Assembly: GCA_021604525.1 (NCBI GenBank)
Contig: BQJD01000021.1
Coordinates: 1 to 61,854 of the forward strand
From: a marine bacterium B5-7
GTDB taxonomy: Bacteria > Pseudomonadota > Gammaproteobacteria > Arenicellales > CAJQKF01
Direction of reading: 5' to 3'
Length of the DNA stretch: 61,854 nt
The notes under the pieces are model-generated. The model had not been told where the DNA came from. It ran no database searches and worked only from the letters and a program-made list of their open reading frames with translations. This document shows positions 52,371 through 61,668 of the stretch, in pieces. A program made the position numbers and the translations under genes. The first letter of the stretch is position 1; each line of letters opens with the position of its first letter.

Positions 52371-52404
52371 AAGGCGAGTCATCTTACCGGGTGACTCGCC
52401 TTTT
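52371..52404 (+). terminator. Terminator 1 after the TRAP operon
   Basis: Stem AAGGCGAGTCA (52371-52381) with TGACTCGCCTT (52392-52402), 10-base loop, then TT. Nine bases after the binding protein stop. Confidence 0.85.
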
Positions 52405-52410
52405 GAATTC

Positions 52411-52443
52411 AAAGCCTCGATTAATCATATCGAGGCTTTTTTT
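52411..52443 (+). terminator. Terminator 2, tandem with terminator 1
   Basis: Stem AAAGCCTCGAT (52411-52421) with ATCGAGGCTTT (52429-52439), 7-base loop, T tract to 52443. Stronger T tract than the first. Confidence 0.88.
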
Positions 52444-52840: not shown

Positions 52841-54544
52841 GTGACCGCAAGGCAAATGCGAACACGGTATCTGACGATTGTCGCCCAGGATCCGGGTCTG
52901 AAATTAAACGGAAAGATCCTGACCGAGCGAGTCGCTGTACCTGCGGAATGTCTTGACCGTGGGCCTCTGGGGAATCGTGTGCATGTGGTCGATTACGATG
53001 CATCAACACAAACTCTTTATTCACCGGCTGACCTTGAAGCATCGGGTGCGTATGAGGATGCCTATTTAAAGCCCTCATCGATAACCATTCTGGGTGATCC
53101 TGGATTCCATGCTCAGAACGTCTATGCGATTGCAATGCGTACCCTGGCACGATTCGAGAGCGCCCTTGGCAGGCGTGTTGGCTGGGGTTTCGACAGTCAC
53201 CAGCTAAAGATTGCGCCTCATGCCTTCGCTGACCCGAATGCTTTTTACTCGCGAGCAGATCAGGGTCTCATGTTCGGATATTTTCCAGGACATAGTGGCA
53301 TGGTGTTCTCTTGTCTCTCCCATGACGTTGTTGCGCATGAGACGACTCACGCATTACTCGACGGCCTTCGCGTTGGTTATATGGATCCGTCCTCAGCGGA
53401 TCAGGCGGCTTTTCATGAAGCTTTCGCTGATCTGGTCGCCTTGCTCTCAGTATTTTCTCTTAAATCGGTAGTCAAACGAGTTCTATCGCGAGATTCCGGG
53501 AGCAACCTGGTTCCTGCATCAGCTATCAGCAAGGCTGCATTAAAACAATCTGTCTTGCTTGGGCTGGCTGAGGAGATGGGGGATGAGTTGGGTGCGTATC
53601 GTAGTAGTCAGGATGCATTGAGGCGTTCAGTAGAACTGAATCCGTCACGCGGGTTGCTTAATCAGTCTGAATTCAGTGAAGCGCACCGTCGCGGCGAGGT
53701 TCTCGTAGCAGCGGTTATGAATGCCTTCATATCGGTTCTCAGTCATCGCATCAGTCAACTCGGTACGGTTACTGGAAACATGCTCGATCTTAATCGCGTT
53801 GCAGAGGAAGCTGCCGATGTTGCCGATTACCTGTTAACCATGGTGATTCGTGCAATCGACTATACCCCGCCGATGCACATCAATTTTAATGACTACCTGA
53901 GCGCTTTGCTAACCGCTGATTATGAAATTCGACCCGATGATTCCCGTTTTCATTTTCGAAATATAATTCGAGAAACATTTACAGCCTATGGAATAGATCC
54001 AATACCGACGAAGTCGGCGGAGCCCGGAATTTGGGATCATCTGGAGAGCGATGTGACGTATCGTGGTGTCCACTTTTCATCGATGCAACATGACCCCGAG
54101 GAAGTTTTCAGATTTATTTGGGAAAACCGGCAATCCCTGAATCTGTTTGAACAGGCCGGTACACGGATTACCTCCGTTCGACCTTGCTCACGACTCTCTC
54201 CAGAGGGGTTTCAGCTCAAGGAAACAGTTGCTGAATGCGTGCAAACATTAAGCATATCGGTTGGTGAGTTAAAGCGTTTCAAAATCGATGTCGACTTTCC
54301 TTTAAGTGCGCATGATGAAGTAACTCTTCAAGGTGGAAGCACCTTGATATTCGACGATTATGGAAAGCTGAAGTATGCCATTGGTACCCGCTTGCATAAT
54401 TGGGAAAAACAGTCAGAACGGCTCAGGTTAATGGTGGACGCCGGTTGCTTTGATCGCGAGACAACTGCCTTGGGACGCATCTCAGCATTGCATACCGAGA
54501 GGTTTATGGATACACACAGCCACCGAAGAGAAGGATGGAAATGA
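52841..54544 (+). CDS. Thermolysin-like (gluzincin) metallopeptidase without signal peptide
   Basis: 567 residues from GTG 52841, with GGAGAGG just upstream at 52829-52835; GTG 52835 and ATG 52856 are alternatives. Zinc site HETTH at residues 166-170 with catalytic Glu167 and third ligand Glu193 in HEAFADLV, the gluzincin pattern of peptidase family M4. The substrate region before it (FGYFPGHSGMVFSCLSHDVV) is unlike secreted thermolysins, and no signal peptide or propeptide is visible, so the enzyme probably stays in the cell. The last 130 residues have no recognised domain. Ends in an ATGA overlap with the MBL gene, implying coupled synthesis. Confidence 0.82.
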   Translation: MTARQMRTRYLTIVAQDPGLKLNGKILTERVAVPAECLDRGPLGNRVHVVDYDASTQTLYSPADLEASGAYEDAYLKPSSITILGDPGFHAQNVYAIAMRTLARFESALGRRVGWGFDSHQLKIAPHAFADPNAFYSRADQGLMFGYFPGHSGMVFSCLSHDVVAHETTHALLDGLRVGYMDPSSADQAAFHEAFADLVALLSVFSLKSVVKRVLSRDSGSNLVPASAISKAALKQSVLLGLAEEMGDELGAYRSSQDALRRSVELNPSRGLLNQSEFSEAHRRGEVLVAAVMNAFISVLSHRISQLGTVTGNMLDLNRVAEEAADVADYLLTMVIRAIDYTPPMHINFNDYLSALLTADYEIRPDDSRFHFRNIIRETFTAYGIDPIPTKSAEPGIWDHLESDVTYRGVHFSSMQHDPEEVFRFIWENRQSLNLFEQAGTRITSVRPCSRLSPEGFQLKETVAECVQTLSISVGELKRFKIDVDFPLSAHDEVTLQGGSTLIFDDYGKLKYAIGTRLHNWEKQSERLRLMVDAGCFDRETTALGRISALHTERFMDTHSHRREGWK

Positions 54545-55830
54545 TGAGTTCGCCACAGCCAACGCGGGTCAATATCAGAACGTATCAAGTAGGCTTTGGC
54601 GACTGTTTTGTCTTGTCGTTTTTCTATGACGATCGTCCGCGCATGCGTACTCGACGAATTCTGATCGACTTTGGTACGACGGGTCTCGCTAAAAGCGGGC
54701 CACGTTCGCTGCGTATTGTTGCTGAAAGTATTGCGCAACATTGCGAGGGAAGACTGGATGCGATCATTGTCACTCATCGACACATGGATCATATCTCCGG
54801 ATTTCGCGGCCGATCCGGCGAAATTATCGCATCACTGAAACCAAAGCTTGTTCTGCAACCGTGGACGGAAGATCCCCGTGCTGCTGTCGATGCATCCCGA
54901 CCGACACGAAGGTTAAAAAGACGCCAGTCATTCACCACCATGCTGGACGATATGCACGACGTTGCTGCTGCGAGTCTTAAGGAACTCGGTACTCAAAGTA
55001 AACGATTTTCAAAGGATGTTCGCCAGCAGCTTGGTTTCCTCGGTCAAGACAATATAAAGAATCGTGCTGCTGTGGAATGGTTGATGAAATTGCCATGTAA
55101 ACATCGTTACCTCGCTTACGGGTATGGCTCGGGGCTGGAAAGACTGGTGCCAGGGTTGAATGTACATGTGCTTGGTCCACCCACGGTAGACCAGACTGAT
55201 GAAATACTCACGCAAAGATCACGTGATGCGGATGAATTCTGGCACTTCCAGGCTATGGCATCGAAACGTGTTGTCAGACATTCAATACGGTTGTTTCCAA
55301 AAGCATCGGTGCGACGGAACATGCCGCCTGAAGCCCGTTGGTTTATTCCGAGACTCGATTCAATTCGTGGTGAGCAGTTACTGCAAATTGTCCGAAATCT
55401 TGACAACGCAATGAATAACACAAGCCTGATCATGTTGTTCGAAACAGGAAATCAGAAGTTGTTGTTTCCAGGTGATGCACAACTCGAAAACTGGTCTTAT
55501 GCCTTGAAGGAGGCACCTGAGAGCAATCGAAATCTTAAGTTACTTGGTGATGTGACGGTTTATAAAGTGGGTCATCACGGTAGCCTGAACGCAACGCCAA
55601 AAACATTATGGGGGAAGTTCCAACGACGCAACCAGGAAACAACAGAAGATCGCCTGGTGACTCTGCTATCAACCGCGAGTGGTAAGCACGGTAATACAGA
55701 TCGAGGTACTGAAGTGCCTCGAAACAAGCTGGTAATTGCGCTCAAGAAGGATAGTGAGTTCCATAGTACCGAGGACATCAGCCATGGTCAGTCTTATGAA
55801 GATATCGAGGTAGAGGTCGACCATGCATGA
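54541..55830 (+). CDS. Metallo-beta-lactamase-fold hydrolase (ComEC/Rec2-like class)
   Basis: 429 residues from ATG 54541, overlapping the peptidase stop; AGAAGG at 54529-54534 is the ribosome site. Opens with TYQVGFGDCFVLSF, then IIVTHRHMDHISG with the metal motif His79-x-His81-x-Asp83-His84, later FPGDAQ and YKVGHHGSLNA, as in the hydrolase domain of ComEC and its stand-alone relatives in conflict systems. A 150-residue insert between strands is variable. No signal peptide or membrane helix. Substrate could be nucleic acid or nucleotide; not decided by the sequence. Confidence 0.82.
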   Translation: MMSSPQPTRVNIRTYQVGFGDCFVLSFFYDDRPRMRTRRILIDFGTTGLAKSGPRSLRIVAESIAQHCEGRLDAIIVTHRHMDHISGFRGRSGEIIASLKPKLVLQPWTEDPRAAVDASRPTRRLKRRQSFTTMLDDMHDVAAASLKELGTQSKRFSKDVRQQLGFLGQDNIKNRAAVEWLMKLPCKHRYLAYGYGSGLERLVPGLNVHVLGPPTVDQTDEILTQRSRDADEFWHFQAMASKRVVRHSIRLFPKASVRRNMPPEARWFIPRLDSIRGEQLLQIVRNLDNAMNNTSLIMLFETGNQKLLFPGDAQLENWSYALKEAPESNRNLKLLGDVTVYKVGHHGSLNATPKTLWGKFQRRNQETTEDRLVTLLSTASGKHGNTDRGTEVPRNKLVIALKKDSEFHSTEDISHGQSYEDIEVEVDHA

Positions 55831-55850
55831 CTGAAGCAGGAGGTGATTTC

Positions 55851-57002
55851 ATGAGTGCAGACGAACAATTCAGTGTAAATCTACCGGTAGCACTATTGCC
55901 AGGTGAAACGGCTGACGATGAGGTGGAAGATGGAATCGCACTGTGCCTTTCCGGTGGCGGATATCGCGCGATGCTGTTTCATCTTGGCGCACTGTGGCGT
56001 TTGTATGAACTGAACCTGATTCAATCATTGCAAAGGATATCCAGCGTATCCGGTGGTTCAATTACTTCGGCGTTGCTCGGGCTACGCTGGGGTGAATTGA
56101 GTTTTGAGCCCGATAACATTCGGGATGATTTTATACCGCTTGTTGTCGATCCTGTGCGTCGTCTGGCAGGTAAAACAATCGATGCGAATTCCGTTATTTT
56201 CGGTGCCCTGTTGCCCGGATCCATTGCTGATCGTGTTGCCGATGCATACGCGGAGCATTTATACGGTGATGCAACTTTGCAAGATCTGCCAGATGATAGC
56301 AATGTACGCTTCATTATCAATGCAACCAATATGCAATCGGGTTGTTTGTGGCGATTTTCAAAGCCGTATATCCGGGATTGGCGAGTGGGTGAGATTCGTA
56401 ATCCGGAGATTCCGCTAGCAGTAGCAGTGGCTGCATCCTCCGCCTTTCCACCAGTCCTGTCACCACTTGAACTTGAAGTAGATCCTGACGCGTTTACACC
56501 TGACACCGGAGCCGATTTACAACGTGAACCATTTACTTCCAACGTGGTGCTGTCCGATGGCGGTGTCTACGACAACCTGGGATTGGAGACATGTTTCAAG
56601 CGCTACAAGACCATTTTAGTCTCAGATGGCGGGGGCAAGCTGGGGCCGGAAGAAGAGCCTAAAACCGATTGGGCCAGACATTCCTACCGGGTTCTGAATG
56701 TGATCGACAATCAGGTCCGAAGTTTAAGAAAACGCCAGCTTATTGCTGCCTATAAAGAAAATGTCAGATATGGAACATATTGGGGTATTCGCAGCAATAT
56801 TGAGCATTATTTTGCTCCGGATAAGCTGTCCTCGCCGTTCGATTGGTCGCTATCTCTTGCGCAAACCCCAACCCGACTAAAACGCATGCCCCAGGCGTTA
56901 CAAGAAGATCTGATTAATTGGGGTTATGCGGTGTGTGATGCCGCCATCAGAAGTTTTGTACTCAATGATGCAGCGGCCCCGGCGCATATGCCCTATGAAT
57001 AA
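55851..57002 (+). CDS. Patatin-like phospholipase
   Basis: 383 residues from ATG 55851, preceded by a perfect AGGAGGTGAT at 55838-55847; an ATG at 55827 overlaps the MBL stop and is less likely. Oxyanion loop GGGYR at 35-39, nucleophile Ser67 in SSVSGGSITS (SxSGGS form), catalytic Asp236 in LSDGGVYDNLG. The dyad is intact, so it should hydrolyse acyl lipids. No signal peptide, so it acts from the cytoplasmic side or is released on lysis. Patatins occur in many antiphage and self-killing systems. Third gene of the island. Confidence 0.87.
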   Translation: MSADEQFSVNLPVALLPGETADDEVEDGIALCLSGGGYRAMLFHLGALWRLYELNLIQSLQRISSVSGGSITSALLGLRWGELSFEPDNIRDDFIPLVVDPVRRLAGKTIDANSVIFGALLPGSIADRVADAYAEHLYGDATLQDLPDDSNVRFIINATNMQSGCLWRFSKPYIRDWRVGEIRNPEIPLAVAVAASSAFPPVLSPLELEVDPDAFTPDTGADLQREPFTSNVVLSDGGVYDNLGLETCFKRYKTILVSDGGGKLGPEEEPKTDWARHSYRVLNVIDNQVRSLRKRQLIAAYKENVRYGTYWGIRSNIEHYFAPDKLSSPFDWSLSLAQTPTRLKRMPQALQEDLINWGYAVCDAAIRSFVLNDAAAPAHMPYE

Positions 57003-57122
57003 TCTTCTTGCAGAAATCGGTTCTGGTACTGATGCACGACAGTCTGCATGGACTCTCCATGCGGCCGTCAAATTCTGCAATGTTGTAAGCCTCACCTGAA
57101 TATTAACAAAGGAGAATGTCTC

Positions 57123-58259
57123 ATGAGTAAGGTCAGTAAAAAATCGTCAAGCACCTCAAAGAAGAAAAAGAAATCCAGCCGTAGTCAGTATACGAAAAAG
57201 AAAACTGCCAGCAATTCAGGAATACCCAACTTCTGTGTGTTACCGGAGGTTCCGGAGCGTACATTCGAAGCGGATGTATCACCTTTTCGCGCGAGCCTTA
57301 TACGTTTCATGGCGAAAAAGTGGGTAAACGGTACCAAGCTTCGTTATTACTTTTTTCGCAACGGTACGATGGGAGGTGCGCAGAACCAGATTAACATGGT
57401 CAAACAGGGGTTCGATGTATGGATGCAACTCGGTATTGGAATATCCTTCGAGGAAGTGGATGACATCGGTGAGGCAGAAATTCGGGTTGGTTTTCTGCAA
57501 GGGGACGGCGCATGGTCTTACGTTGGTCGGGATGTTGTCGACATTCCCGGACAGCAGGAGCGAACCATGAACTTCGGTTGGGATTTAACTGCCGATCCTC
57601 GTGGCGTAGACACGCCAGTTCATGAGATTGGTCATACTCTGGGCTTCCCGCATGAGCACCAGAACCCATTTGCCGGAATTGTTTGGGATGAGGCCGCTGT
57701 TTACAACTACTTCGGTAGCCCGCCGAACAACTGGTCACAACAGCAGACGTTCTACAATGTTTTAAGGAAACTGAATGCCGGTGAAGTTGAAGGAACCGAT
57801 TGGGATCCTGATTCGGTTATGCATTATGCGTTCCCGCCTAACCTTATTGTCGAGCCCGAAGAATATCGTAACGGGCTTAGGCCGGCACTTGGGTTATCCG
57901 CAAGGGATATTGAGCAGGTCAAGTTGTTTTATCCGGAAATCAACGATGCGCTATACCCGGAACTCAAGCCATTACAATCAGTCACGTTACAGCTTCAACC
58001 GGCCGAGCAGCGAGACTACCTGATCAAACCACCGGAAACCCGTGATTACACCATCCAGACATTTGGACAGTCGGATACGGTAATGGTGTTGTTCGAAGAT
58101 CAGGATGGTGATCATCGTTATGTTGACGGAGACGATGACAGCGGCATGAACTTTAACTCGCAAATCACGGAGCGACTTTATAAGGGAAGGCGCTATATCC
58201 TTCGAATTCGGCTGTATTCCAGCTACTCAACTGGCGAAACCGCCGTAATGCTTTGGTAG
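57123..58259 (+). CDS. Metzincin-type zinc metallopeptidase (astacin-like) with polybasic N-terminus
   Basis: 378 residues from ATG 57123 with AAGGAG at 57109-57114; the frame extends to 57048 but without a ribosome site. Residues 2-30 are Lys/Ser/Thr-rich (KKSSSTSKKKKKSSRSQY), with no signal peptide. Zinc motif HEIGHTLGFPH at 167-177 (HExxHxxGxxH) and Met-turn SVMHY at 231-235 place it in the metzincins, close to astacins. A C-terminal beta-sandwich (about 290-378) resembles pre-peptidase C-terminal domains of secreted proteases. Gap of 120 bases after the patatin gene. Confidence 0.87.
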   Translation: MSKVSKKSSSTSKKKKKSSRSQYTKKKTASNSGIPNFCVLPEVPERTFEADVSPFRASLIRFMAKKWVNGTKLRYYFFRNGTMGGAQNQINMVKQGFDVWMQLGIGISFEEVDDIGEAEIRVGFLQGDGAWSYVGRDVVDIPGQQERTMNFGWDLTADPRGVDTPVHEIGHTLGFPHEHQNPFAGIVWDEAAVYNYFGSPPNNWSQQQTFYNVLRKLNAGEVEGTDWDPDSVMHYAFPPNLIVEPEEYRNGLRPALGLSARDIEQVKLFYPEINDALYPELKPLQSVTLQLQPAEQRDYLIKPPETRDYTIQTFGQSDTVMVLFEDQDGDHRYVDGDDDSGMNFNSQITERLYKGRRYILRIRLYSSYSTGETAVMLW

Positions 58260-58314
58260 TGGTTGAATATCTGATGTTTATTTTACATGTGCCACCTTGA
58301 AAGGAGGTTTCGCC

Positions 58315-59148
58315 ATGACCGATATCTGGAAAATTATAGAGCGATTTTTCGATAAGATGCCGCAATGGGTGCAAGTCTCAACATTTCTGGTGTTGTTGTT
58401 TCTTTGCGTCTACTTGTATCTCGTACCCACATTCGCCAATGGTCAATTGGTTGCGATTACAGAATCCGGTGGTCGCGTACCTTATCGTGGTGCAGATATG
58501 GCTATGCATGTGGGTGGCCGAAATCTCAAGTTCAAGACCAACGAAATCGGCTATTGGTCTATCCCGGTTGTCTCTCGATTTCCCGGCAAGATACGCATCA
58601 ACATATATCATGAGGATCAAAGAGCATGGTACCCGATCGTTCTTGGCTGGATGGATTTGTGGAGCAGCGACTTCGAAATCAGGATCAGTAATCAGGAGCC
58701 ATATTTCGATGTTGAACTGGTCGATAACACACAAGAGACCGGGTTGATTAATCAAGCCCACAGTGCCGAGTTGATTATCCCTGAAGATATTTTATCTCGT
58801 ACCCAGGATAGCCGACTGGAGGCGAATATCAGAACCCAGGTGTATGGGGTCATGGCAGAAAATATGAAAACCGATTTGAACCGCATTAACGATCAGACCC
58901 CATTTTCTGCTGCTGGCGGAGCGAGTTATATTAATCGAATACAAATTATTGGTGAACTTGAACAACAGTTCGACCTGGTTATTCCAGACGAGCACTGGCG
59001 TTCCATAGACACGGTGGGTAGTCTTGTGGATTATGTTTATAAAAGAAAGCTACTTGAAAGAGATAATCCCAACTTGCAACAAACGGATAAAAGTTGGCCA
59101 CAGATTCAGCAAAGCATGCCTTCAGGTAGTCGCGCAACGTTCCAGTAA
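58315..59148 (+). CDS. Membrane-anchored protein with acyl-carrier-like C-terminal domain lacking the serine
   Basis: 277 residues from ATG 58315, with AAGGAGG at 58299-58305. One membrane helix about 20-38 (VSTFLVLLFLCVYLYLVPT), then a beta-rich region about 45-135 resembling a carboxypeptidase-regulatory-like or Ig fold. Residues about 165-246 follow the acyl carrier protein pattern, with IIGELEQQFDLVIPDEHWRSIDTVGSLVDYV matching helices 2-4, but the DSL motif reads SYIN (204-207): Tyr replaces the phosphopantetheine serine. It therefore cannot carry an acyl chain and may be a protein-binding module. Last gene of the island, 55 bases after the metzincin. No known family as a whole. Confidence 0.72.
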   Translation: MTDIWKIIERFFDKMPQWVQVSTFLVLLFLCVYLYLVPTFANGQLVAITESGGRVPYRGADMAMHVGGRNLKFKTNEIGYWSIPVVSRFPGKIRINIYHEDQRAWYPIVLGWMDLWSSDFEIRISNQEPYFDVELVDNTQETGLINQAHSAELIIPEDILSRTQDSRLEANIRTQVYGVMAENMKTDLNRINDQTPFSAAGGASYINRIQIIGELEQQFDLVIPDEHWRSIDTVGSLVDYVYKRKLLERDNPNLQQTDKSWPQIQQSMPSGSRATFQ

Positions 59149-60000: not shown

Positions 60001-60348
60001 TTATTTCAAATGAACCGGGTGGCCATGGGGTGTCGACAGATAGGCGTTCTCCCAATCCATACGTCGCTCAGTCATGTCTGCTGATTTGATCACGCTATGT
60101 GCAGCTACAAGTCTCTCTAATGCAATCAGTGCGCACTGATAGTAGGTATATTGCGTGTCCGGCTCATTGCGATCATTGGCTTCTTTTATTGCTAGTCCGA
60201 GTGCGTCAGACCAGCAATTTGCGGTAAATAGTCCACGTTGTACCAGCGTGTCCGCCATTGCCAGTATTTCGGCTTGCCAGGGTTCTTCAAAGGCAGCCAT
60301 GCCGTCAGTTGATGCCAGTGGTTTAAGCGAAGCCGGTTGGTCATTCAT
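60001..60348 (-). CDS. Nitrile hydratase accessory protein (P14K/activator class)
   Basis: 115 residues from ATG 60348, overlapping the beta-subunit stop by 8 bases; GGGAG is 8 bases upstream. AAFEEPWQAEILAMADTLVQRGLFTANCWSDALG resembles the N-terminal half of nitrile hydratase beta subunits, the hallmark of the P14K activators that insert cobalt by alpha-subunit exchange. Last gene of the minus-strand nthA-nthB-activator operon. Confidence 0.8.
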   Translation of the reverse strand: MNDQPASLKPLASTDGMAAFEEPWQAEILAMADTLVQRGLFTANCWSDALGLAIKEANDRNEPDTQYTYYQCALIALERLVAAHSVIKSADMTERRMDWENAYLSTPHGHPVHLK

Positions 60349-61018
60349 TGGCATCACTCCCTGACAGATAGCTTTCCCACAGATCGAGATAAACTCTATC
60401 GCATCTCCCTTTGGCCTCCGGCCAGAGTTCCGCTGCTTCAAAAACAATCGAATACAAGTGCTGGTGTGTCTCGATACCTTGTGCGGATAAATCAGGAAAA
60501 ATATGCGCGCCGTGATGACATTGGACTACTCCGCGCTTACCACGGACGTACTGTGGTAAGCGGGTGTGATGATCATGACCGATGCTGGATGTGAATACGG
60601 TATCGCCTATGGAAAATTGTGGTTCCGATTCAACCTTGCCATCAAATCGAAAGGCGTTTTTACGATCCTGCGCAAGGACAGCGTCCTTGTCCATCACTGG
60701 CGGTGCTTCCTCTGCCATGTAGTGACCGGCTTCAGCTTTACCTGAAATAACCTCGTCCATGGCAAATATGCCGGCGTTTAGATAAGCAGCAAGATCGGTT
60801 TGTGCCCATGAATCGAAGTACGGCCGATTCAGGTAGTCCTCCGGCTTGATCAACTCCCGTACATGCCGCCACCAGTCAATGGTACAACCTGGTACACGAG
60901 CGCAGCGTGATATACCCCATTCACGACCTTCCCATGCATGATGAAACACAACATCCGATTCATCTACATCGATGGCGCCATAGCCGAGTTTGCCGCCAAG
61001 ATCATGTACACCGTCCAT
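60341..61018 (-). CDS. nthB: Nitrile hydratase beta subunit
   Basis: 225 residues. Canonical start MDGVHDLGGKLGYGAI; N-terminal helical half and C-terminal beta-barrel with FSIGDTVFTSSIG, HTRLPQYVRGKRGVV and LYSIVFEAAELWPEA. Both halves are on one chain, as in nitrile hydratase and unlike thiocyanate hydrolase, where they are separate subunits. It completes the active site on the alpha subunit metal and converts nitriles to amides. ATG shares one base with the alpha stop. Confidence 0.95.
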   Translation of the reverse strand: MDGVHDLGGKLGYGAIDVDESDVVFHHAWEGREWGISRCARVPGCTIDWWRHVRELIKPEDYLNRPYFDSWAQTDLAAYLNAGIFAMDEVISGKAEAGHYMAEEAPPVMDKDAVLAQDRKNAFRFDGKVESEPQFSIGDTVFTSSIGHDHHTRLPQYVRGKRGVVQCHHGAHIFPDLSAQGIETHQHLYSIVFEAAELWPEAKGRCDRVYLDLWESYLSGSDANE

Positions 61019-61668
61019 TAGCGCAACCCTTGGGTATCAGGCTTAAGGTCACGATCCGTTCCAATCATTGAATTGCGTGTGACGAGTTTTGCCAGGGACG
61101 CTTCGTCCATGTCATCGGTATCATCCGGACGCTGTGGTATCACCAGGTAGCGCAATTCTGCCGTGCTATCCCATACGCGGATCTCGACTTCATCATCAAT
61201 TTCAATGCCGAATTCCTTCAGCACGCCTCTTGGGTCGCGAACTGCACGAGAGCGGTATGCCGCCGCCTTATACCAGGCAGGGGCTATGCCCAGCAGTGAG
61301 AATGGGTAGCAGGAACACAGGGTACACACAACCAGGTTATGAATTTTGTCAGTATTCTCAACCACTTTTAAATGTGCCGTCGCCGTACCAAGATAGCCAA
61401 GCTCATCAATTGCTGAGGGCGCGTCTTCCATGAGACGACGTTTGTAATCTGGATCGGTCCATGCTTTGGCGACAACGTGAGCACCCCGTTTTGGACCGAT
61501 TTCGTCGGTATAGGCTTCGACCCAGGCGTCGATGGTGCGTGAGTCCACAAGACCCTTTTCAACCAGTAGCGTTTCCAGCGCTTTTACCCTTAAGGCGGAT
61601 TCGGACGGTAAGTGACTATGAAGATGCTCGTGAATTTTCACTACTTTGCTGGAGTCATGTTCAGACAT
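61018..61668 (-). CDS. nthA: Nitrile hydratase alpha subunit, cobalt type
   Basis: 216 residues. Metal-binding motif VCTLCSC at 114-120 with Cys115, Cys118 and Cys120; the Thr between the first cysteines marks cobalt rather than iron enzymes (iron type has Ser). In the mature enzyme two of the cysteines are oxidised. Surrounding landmarks CYPFSLLGIAPAWYK and YRSRAVRDPRGVLKEFG are standard. First gene of the minus-strand operon, 88 bases downstream of the next gene end. Confidence 0.95.
   Translation of the reverse strand: MSEHDSSKVVKIHEHLHSHLPSESALRVKALETLLVEKGLVDSRTIDAWVEAYTDEIGPKRGAHVVAKAWTDPDYKRRLMEDAPSAIDELGYLGTATAHLKVVENTDKIHNLVVCTLCSCYPFSLLGIAPAWYKAAAYRSRAVRDPRGVLKEFGIEIDDEVEIRVWDSTAELRYLVIPQRPDDTDDMDEASLAKLVTRNSMIGTDRDLKPDTQGLR

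Follow-up and report, generated by a model that had tools for sequence, protein, structure and literature searches.

Genomic organization of the locus

The window analysed here is a stretch of 61,854 nucleotides from the marine bacterium B5-7 (contig BQJD01000021.1), and the subject of this work is a set of five same-strand genes, named A to E, which occupies positions 52841-59148 of its plus strand. A encodes a thermolysin-like metalloprotease, B a metallo-beta-lactamase (MBL) hydrolase, C a patatin-like phospholipase, D an astacin-type metzincin and E a protein with a transmembrane stretch and an acyl-carrier-like domain. A and B, in some loci accompanied by C, most likely form an immune module that pairs a nuclease with a protease, as do the systems published in 2025, but in which the protease is of another class and a membrane effector is added.

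The first three genes are closely packed. A (52841-54544, plus strand) encodes 567 amino acids from a GTG start and shares an ATGA overlap with B, provided that B starts at 54541. C begins 20 bases past the end of B and has AGGAGG ahead of it. A gap of 120 bases separates C from D, which is preceded by AAAGGAG, and E is preceded by GAAAGGAGG. The earlier note on this DNA had described five genes on one strand with strong ribosome sites and a tight coupling of the first three; its coordinates and the sites before C, D and E are confirmed, and the coupling holds with B starting at 54541. Its naming of an MBL hydrolase, a patatin, a metzincin and a carrier-like protein also stands, with Pfam matches above the cut-off to Lactamase_B in B, patatin in C, astacin in D and PP-binding in E. 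The absence of signal peptides from the hydrolases agrees with a simple hydropathy profile, used in place of a signal-peptide program, which gave no strongly hydrophobic stretch in A-D.

Upstream of A, after a solute-binding gene, lie two terminator-like hairpins (52389-52401 and 52411-52439, plus strand); the scanned region holds 6 hairpins against 6.6 in shuffles. Downstream of E, the Pfam scan gave a HupE/UreJ gene. Both flanks had been named previously, together with an insertion-like element upstream of A. The latter was not supported: the repeat search gave nothing of the insertion-element kind, and the tRNA search of the whole window was empty. Base composition gives no sign of a foreign origin, the G+C content being 48.4% in the island and 49.9% in the window.

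Conservation and distribution of the A-B pair

Relatives were collected through A, and B played no part in the choice of loci. A scan of genome contigs gave at least 592 pattern matches and at least 552 relatives, of which the best 80 were kept; with the window and the plasmid loci (eight opened from A hits) they make up 88 loci. Left out were L001-L006 and L009-L011, which are weak hits or belong to the own genome, L007, whose contig appears to be identical with that of L050, L030 (the same record as L013) and L008 (short, and the same place as L146, which is without B). Genes were called by simple rules based on the longest open reading frame (ORF), by which some high-GC loci are miscalled. 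B is the gene directly after A in every locus (88 of 88, the window among them). The distance matrices of A and B correlate with r = 0.90 over 85 loci, a value that none of 2000 permutations reached (maximum 0.15); the other three loci have short domains and were left out of the tree and the correlation.

That five unrelated housekeeping genes were brought together by chance is extremely improbable. A characterised orthologue in this setting was found for none of the five, which leaves some room for such an origin, but the A-B adjacency and the recurrent patatin have already refuted it for A, B and C. The earlier note had held that a neighbourhood kept in no relative would speak against its proposal, in which coupled hydrolases form a set of the defence kind; the adjacency of A and B and the recurrence of C are in favour of that proposal. 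A conserved island of five families is, conversely, rejected. Only A-B is constant among the 88 loci, C is one of several swappable partners, the D family occurs in four loci and E in none elsewhere.

The spread of A is patchy. The A tree spans 13 named phyla, one of them archaeal, with 10 rows unassigned, and requires 23 phylum changes against a minimum of 12. Above 200 bits, A is found in three of 274 class genomes (5 at E 0.001) and in three of 60 relatives (7 at E 0.001), the own genome included in both; it was not found in two other genomes of the same genus (93% and 76% complete) nor in one of the same family. Among 72,556 plasmid records, A occurs in 158, in 23 of them with 80% or more of its length covered. 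A clean empty site was not found in relatives. In the same-genus genome G289, the solute-binding gene that precedes the island is kept (86% identical) and other genes then follow; in G280 it is also kept (75%), with different genes after it. In G289 and G294, the relatives of nitrile hydratase and the weak ones of HupE sit on other contigs.

The metalloprotease A

Against the Pfam family Peptidase_M4, A scores 14.7 bits, below the gathering cut-off of 22.4, and the Pfam scan found no trypsin or caspase domain in it. The predicted AlphaFold2 (AF2) model has a predicted local distance difference test (pLDDT) score of 90.1, and its best Foldseek matches are of the M36/M4 type: 4k90 (E 2.4e-5), thermolysin 5fxn (E 3.5e-5) and vibriolysin 3nqy (E 1.2e-4). 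The zinc motif HETTH (residues 166-170) lies at 53336-53350 on the plus strand, as computed from the start at 52841. The structure prediction used 70 A and 65 B rows from the window and the genome-contig loci, and the zinc site H166, E167, H170 and E193 is unchanged in 70 of 70 aligned A sequences. As judged from the model, A is an enzyme with HExxH, a downstream Glu and a thermolysin-type (gluzincin) fold, so that the earlier zinc-protease call is upheld by the predicted structure whereas the Pfam score falls short of it. A would be the activating protease of the module.

Sequence relatives of A were absent from solved structures up to E 0.1, and profile comparison showed A and B to be unrelated. 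In PADLOC no family matches A at E up to 1, and the library would therefore miss this protease. Among the A frames scanned, three of the 10 longest carry a fused S8 protease.

Two side observations concern A-like genes. In the own genome, a short A-like peptidase of 423 amino acids directly follows YcaO and TfuA genes (L147, G000:C47, 3543-8173), placed as if it were the peptidase of a peptide-modification cluster. In G303, a genome of the same order, a SAM-guanylate cyclase-AAA-TPR protein and a protein of 360 amino acids precede an A homologue that lacks B (L144, 1492-7462).

The metallo-beta-lactamase hydrolase B

B (54535-55830, plus strand; alternative start 54541) is a hydrolase of 431 amino acids which exceeds the Pfam cut-off for Lactamase_B (24.0 bits; cut-off 22.7). 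In PADLOC it matches LmuA (5.8e-19), RTasMBL (1.2e-9) and Avs1a (2.1e-8). The top Foldseek match of its predicted model (pLDDT 87.4) is the ComEC domain 9ic4, with an E value of 1.2e-10 and a template-modelling (TM) score by target of 0.69. The metal site T80, H81, H83, D85, H86, D314 and H347 is unchanged in 65 of 65 aligned sequences.

Compared with ComEC 9ic4, B has about 133 extra residues (profile 102 to 290 against chain 91 to 146). This expansion, on either side of which 9ic4 aligns, contains both dips in model confidence, at 126-131 and 229-235, where pLDDT falls below 50. B is thus predicted to carry two disordered insertions inside the expansion of its ComEC domain. They correspond to two candidate gating or cleavage loops, loop 1 of residues 121-135 (54895-54939, plus strand) and loop 2 of residues 223-240 (55201-55254, plus strand). 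Loop 2 shows a partly conserved R-S-x-D-x-x-E-[FY]-W, in which a hydrophobic residue at 224 and E-[FY]-W are kept in most rows. B is, on these predictions, a candidate gated pro-nuclease.

MBL folds can also act on signals in phage conflict. The locus could be a conflict system in which B hydrolyses a nucleotide signal or small ligand instead of being a protease-activated DNase, A cuts host or phage proteins and C is a membrane effector. This explanation is rather unlikely. It is helped by that background, by a weak match of the B profile to Apyc1 7u2s (E 0.005) and by the two loci in which A stands without B (G028 and G303). However, the best structural match of B is a ComEC domain, its defence matches are MBLs of the LmuA, Avs1a and defence-associated reverse transcriptase (DRT) types, and the strict adjacency of A and B suits a substrate relation.

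Comparison with known defence systems

Passages of Tuck et al. 2025 (PMC12799240) describe, for Hachiman, AVAST and canu, gated pro-nucleases which a caspase or a trypsin-like protease opens. In HamM two insertions are disordered, and cleavage after I118 and I218 converts the protein into a DNase; the same gating device is present in AVAST, and in canu a caspase complex turns CanC into a nuclease. To the gated MBL pro-nucleases treated there (HamMAB Hachiman, Avs1a, Lamassu and DRT variants), the A-B pair is similar in several respects: an MBL hydrolase of the ComEC kind, two disordered insertions (predicted in B), an adjacent and co-evolving protease and a defence neighbourhood. The earlier note had been unable to name a system for this gene combination, and the likeness of B to the gated pro-nucleases in these passages narrows that statement.

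There are also differences. In those passages of PMC12799240 the core defence protein carries an N-terminal trypsin domain, whereas here the protease is the separate upstream gene A, and its M36/M4 fold is not shared by the published pairs, whose proteases are trypsin-like or caspases. The A-B pair sometimes adds a phospholipase gene, unlike the gated systems, and no known sensor gene is present among the five. Canu (CanABC) resembles the locus in that, according to the same source passages, its gated-type nuclease gene lies downstream of the gene for a protease; unlike in canu, however, the Pfam scan gave no caspase match among the five genes. Lamassu resembles the locus in that B matches the LmuA model and that relative L018 has an LmuB-like gene upstream of A, but no SMC/ATPase match was found among the five genes. 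Hachiman differs in that none of the five matches HamA or HamB, although genes of both types adjoin the relatives L016 and L187.

The patatin CapV is an effector of the cyclic oligonucleotide-based antiphage signalling system (CBASS). Patatin effectors of this system resemble C as phospholipases used for suicide, the role proposed for C; there is, however, no cyclase match among the five genes, and the patatin accompanies a protease and an MBL instead. A set of M4-like protease, MBL and patatin was not found described in the literature searched, which excluded most subscription papers and all preprints, nor in the passages of PMC12799240, PMC12419801, PMC7159879, PMC8195603, PMC9848320 and PMC9705864.

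The patatin C and the exchangeable partners

C (55851-57002, plus strand; 383 amino acids, frame opening at 55827) matches the Pfam patatin family with 59.6 bits (cut-off 27.7). The DGG motif is present and VSGGS is visible in the alignment; the PADLOC phospholipase-effector match reaches an E value of 0.0016 only. Counting the window, 12 of the 88 loci have a C-type patatin near A-B, which in 11 of them lies within 100 bases, either upstream or downstream. With five Pfam patatins in the 4.41 Mb of the own genome, chance should place one next to a given pair, by our estimate, in well under 1% of loci. By these gene counts, the patatin is beside the pair more often than chance predicts.

A cluster of DUF2235/Tle1-like phospholipases is near A-B in 11 other loci, the member in L013 being PF09994. 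On the A tree, the patatin label changes 10 times, the DUF2235 label 6 times and the D label 4 times; the repeated changes indicate that partner associations were gained or lost repeatedly. A third common partner was rejected, since among the Pfam families listed none occurs in more than two of 84 neighbour ORFs (same-strand ORFs of at least 130 amino acids within 420 bases, with 15 near-duplicate loci left out).

Individual loci illustrate the variety. In L091, of the Myxococcota, the order A-B-C-D is the same as in the window, and L047, of Quisquiliibacterium, has an A-B-C set. In L143, from a genome of the same order, a patatin 64% identical to C is followed by an A with an N-terminal TPR-sensor domain and then by B. 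In L018, A is preceded, with a spacing of 24 bases, by an LmuB-like ATPase gene, a DUF7379 protein comes after D in L039, and in L012 a caspase gene is found 1.3 kb upstream.

C matches 46 plasmid records. Six contexts were opened, and an MBL gene is nearby in five. Patatin occurs together with A and B in L186 and L187, and with an S8 peptidase and an MBL in L182. In L184 (Sinorhizobium americanum plasmid B, 2384-7176), a canu-like row of caspase, hypothetical protein and MBL (Pfam 20.9 bits; cut-off 22.7) is divergent from the C-type patatin. In L183 the MBL is near the patatin, with an insertion sequence between them and no protease seen, and in L185 the C-type patatin is without an MBL. A patatin, a protein of 1091 amino acids and an LmuA/Avs1a-type MBL stand in a row in L140 (5330-11185); the middle protein has no Pfam match, and its CHAT/caspase-like end was recognized by eye only. 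In this small sample, the C-type patatin seems to accompany this MBL type across protease classes in the majority of cases.

Two further observations concern the neighbours of the pair. Tyrosinase genes adjoin A-B in L015 (7308-8561) and L069 (13032-14564). In the Rhizobium phaseoli plasmid pRphaN671d (L014, L186), about 25 kb contain a CBASS cyclase and two A-B modules, the first accompanied by DUF2235 and the second by patatin.

Genes D and E

D (57123-58259, plus strand) encodes an astacin-type metzincin of 378 amino acids, in which just one Cys, residue 38, precedes the catalytic domain. It scores 34.7 bits against Pfam Astacin (cut-off 22.5), 109 bits against myroilysin 5gwd and 406 bits against the AbsR1 model NF050131, whose equivalog cut-off is 650. 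Like myroilysin and AbsR1, D has the site HExxHxxGxxHE, and its N-terminal Cys recalls the cysteine switch of myroilysin in passages of PMC9848320; unlike them, it shows no export stretch and remains under the AbsR1 equivalog cut-off. A lone Cys precedes the catalytic domain in four of four D-family proteins, although not in register in the alignment, which gives a hint of a possible cysteine switch or zymogen control. According to passages of PMC9705864, AbsR1 (SCO6992) binds zinc and has beta-glucuronidase activity and no protease activity, and the proteolytic activity of D is therefore not certain.

E (58315-59148, plus strand) consists of an N-terminal transmembrane stretch, a middle domain of beta type by eye and a degenerate acyl-carrier-like domain. 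Simple hydropathy gave one hydrophobic stretch, from residue 19, and the PP-binding match is of 24.3 bits (cut-off 20.8), which sustains the earlier description of a membrane-anchored carrier-like protein; the attachment serine, however, is lost. In two alignments a Tyr is aligned with the phosphopantetheine Ser of the DSL motif, a Ser being one position earlier, and with this replacement E is unlikely to be a functional acyl carrier. Neither the other 87 loci nor the plasmids gave a match to E, and in 100 genomes of the same order there are only partial matches, to the carrier-domain end. The membership of E in the system is uncertain, and it may not belong.

That the system consists of A, B and C, with D and E as separate neighbours sharing the strand by chance, is a substantial possibility, if somewhat short of probable. 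The 120-base gap after C, the lack of E in the other loci and the occurrence of the D family near A-B in only four of 88 are in accordance with it. On the other hand, the hairpin scan of the plus strand from C to the end of E gave no terminator-like site, the A-B-C-D order recurs in the distant Myxococcota relative L091, and on the A tree the four D loci need four changes, which points to more than one origin of the link.

Defence setting

Several plasmid relatives have annotated defence genes as neighbours: a CBASS cyclase (L014, L016), DarT with HamA-HamB (L016), HamA with a helicase (L187), ThiF (L019) and MPN/PAD-1 (L018). In two Rhizobiaceae plasmids, of R. leguminosarum 248 (L016) and A. 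tumefaciens H25/79 (L187), the row patatin-A-B is directly before HamA, which starts 130 and 114 bases after B, respectively, and keeps the D...GExK motif. The HamA neighbour may thus represent a complete Hachiman next door rather than a joint system; a joint Hachiman-metalloprotease locus in L016 and L187 is possible.

At E 1e-15, PADLOC gave 71 families in 120 flank proteins (of 145 eligible, from 75 loci) versus 20 in 120 control proteins (of 132), a rough contrast in that the control comes from one class and families rather than proteins are counted. The flank families include, among the matches listed, LmuA, LmuB, a CBASS cyclase, E1-E2, SAVED-HNH and Avs3b. The control families are read as mostly ones with common housekeeping relatives (RtcR, ShosA).

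It is improbable that the genes serve no immunity at all and encode enzymes of lysis or lipid remodelling that act in metabolism, predation or stress. Some relatives do lie beside tyrosinase, multicopper oxidase or transporter genes, and the D relative AbsR1 is, in the passages cited above (PMC9705864), a beta-glucuronidase rather than a protease; but A-D are without a hydrophobic export stretch, the spread is patchy, and CBASS, Lamassu, Avs and Hachiman genes are among the neighbours.

Proposed mechanism and significance

It is probable, by a modest measure, that A and B are the protease and pro-nuclease of an immune-type system of the abortive kind, with C as a second effector. For the cutting of B by A, the two gating insertions with a partner protease in the passages of PMC12799240 are the precedent. 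By analogy with these systems, the two loops would keep B inactive in the resting cell. A would sense invasion, or a partner would switch A on; candidate partners are the TPR-sensor domain fused to A in one relative and the product of the LmuB-like ATPase gene upstream of it in another. Active A would then cut the loops, and B, again by analogy, would degrade DNA. C would attack membrane phospholipids, and the infected cell would die or arrest before phage release. Where present, D could be a further pro-protease, held by its N-terminal cysteine and freed by proteolysis, and E a membrane tether or a passenger.

Several observations weigh against this interpretation. With regard to the pair itself, the best 80 genome-contig loci are biased to near kin. 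In the two genome samples B is present in only three of five strong A loci; around the HExxH homologues of G028 (215 bits) and G303 (280 bits), the 12-13 kb examined are without a B gene. Shorter A-like proteins (420-499 amino acids; L147-L149, of which L148 and L149 are in same-order genomes) are without B, and the plasmid records contain B in 31 cases against 158 for A. With regard to B, its NCBIfam scores are far under the cut-offs (Avs1a 42 of 420 bits, 6A-MBL 29 of 220 bits), and loop 1 varies in length and letters, with no clear conserved cleavage residue. The flank contrast is rough. Both the C-type patatin and the DUF2235 cluster are missing from 65 of 88 loci, so that the pair must act there alone or with other partners; the neighbours in these loci are mixed and include tyrosinase and transporter genes. 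Lastly, none of the 27 pattern matches with A in IMG/VR viral contigs is a relative. With this result, and with two of 50,697 phage records matching A, carriage as phage or prophage cargo was rejected.

A broader reading is put forward tentatively, and is rather to be doubted than expected: a widespread immune cascade, not met with in the literature searched, whose cytosolic metalloprotease of the thermolysin-like type would free together a gated MBL nuclease, a phospholipase and in some genomes a cysteine-switch metzincin, with protease class and lipase freely exchanged around one nuclease type. The exchanged proteases would be metalloprotease, S8 and caspase, and the lipases patatin, Tle1-like and perhaps DUF7379. 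If true, it would be a bacterial counterpart of the caspase cascade. The protease/pro-nuclease pair, if confirmed, would add another protease class to the proteolytically activated bacterial nucleases and tie nuclease activation by proteolysis to the destruction of membrane lipids. It would also give a testable function to the A family, of which the scan of species genomes counted at least 552 relatives, a subset of them checked for B. The swaps of protease class beside one nuclease type may serve the study of co-evolution between cleavage site and protease.

Other genes of the window

Beyond the island, 60341-61668 of the window holds two genes on the minus strand: one for a nitrile hydratase alpha chain (PF02979, 283 bits) and, downstream of it, one that resembles the beta chain by eye.

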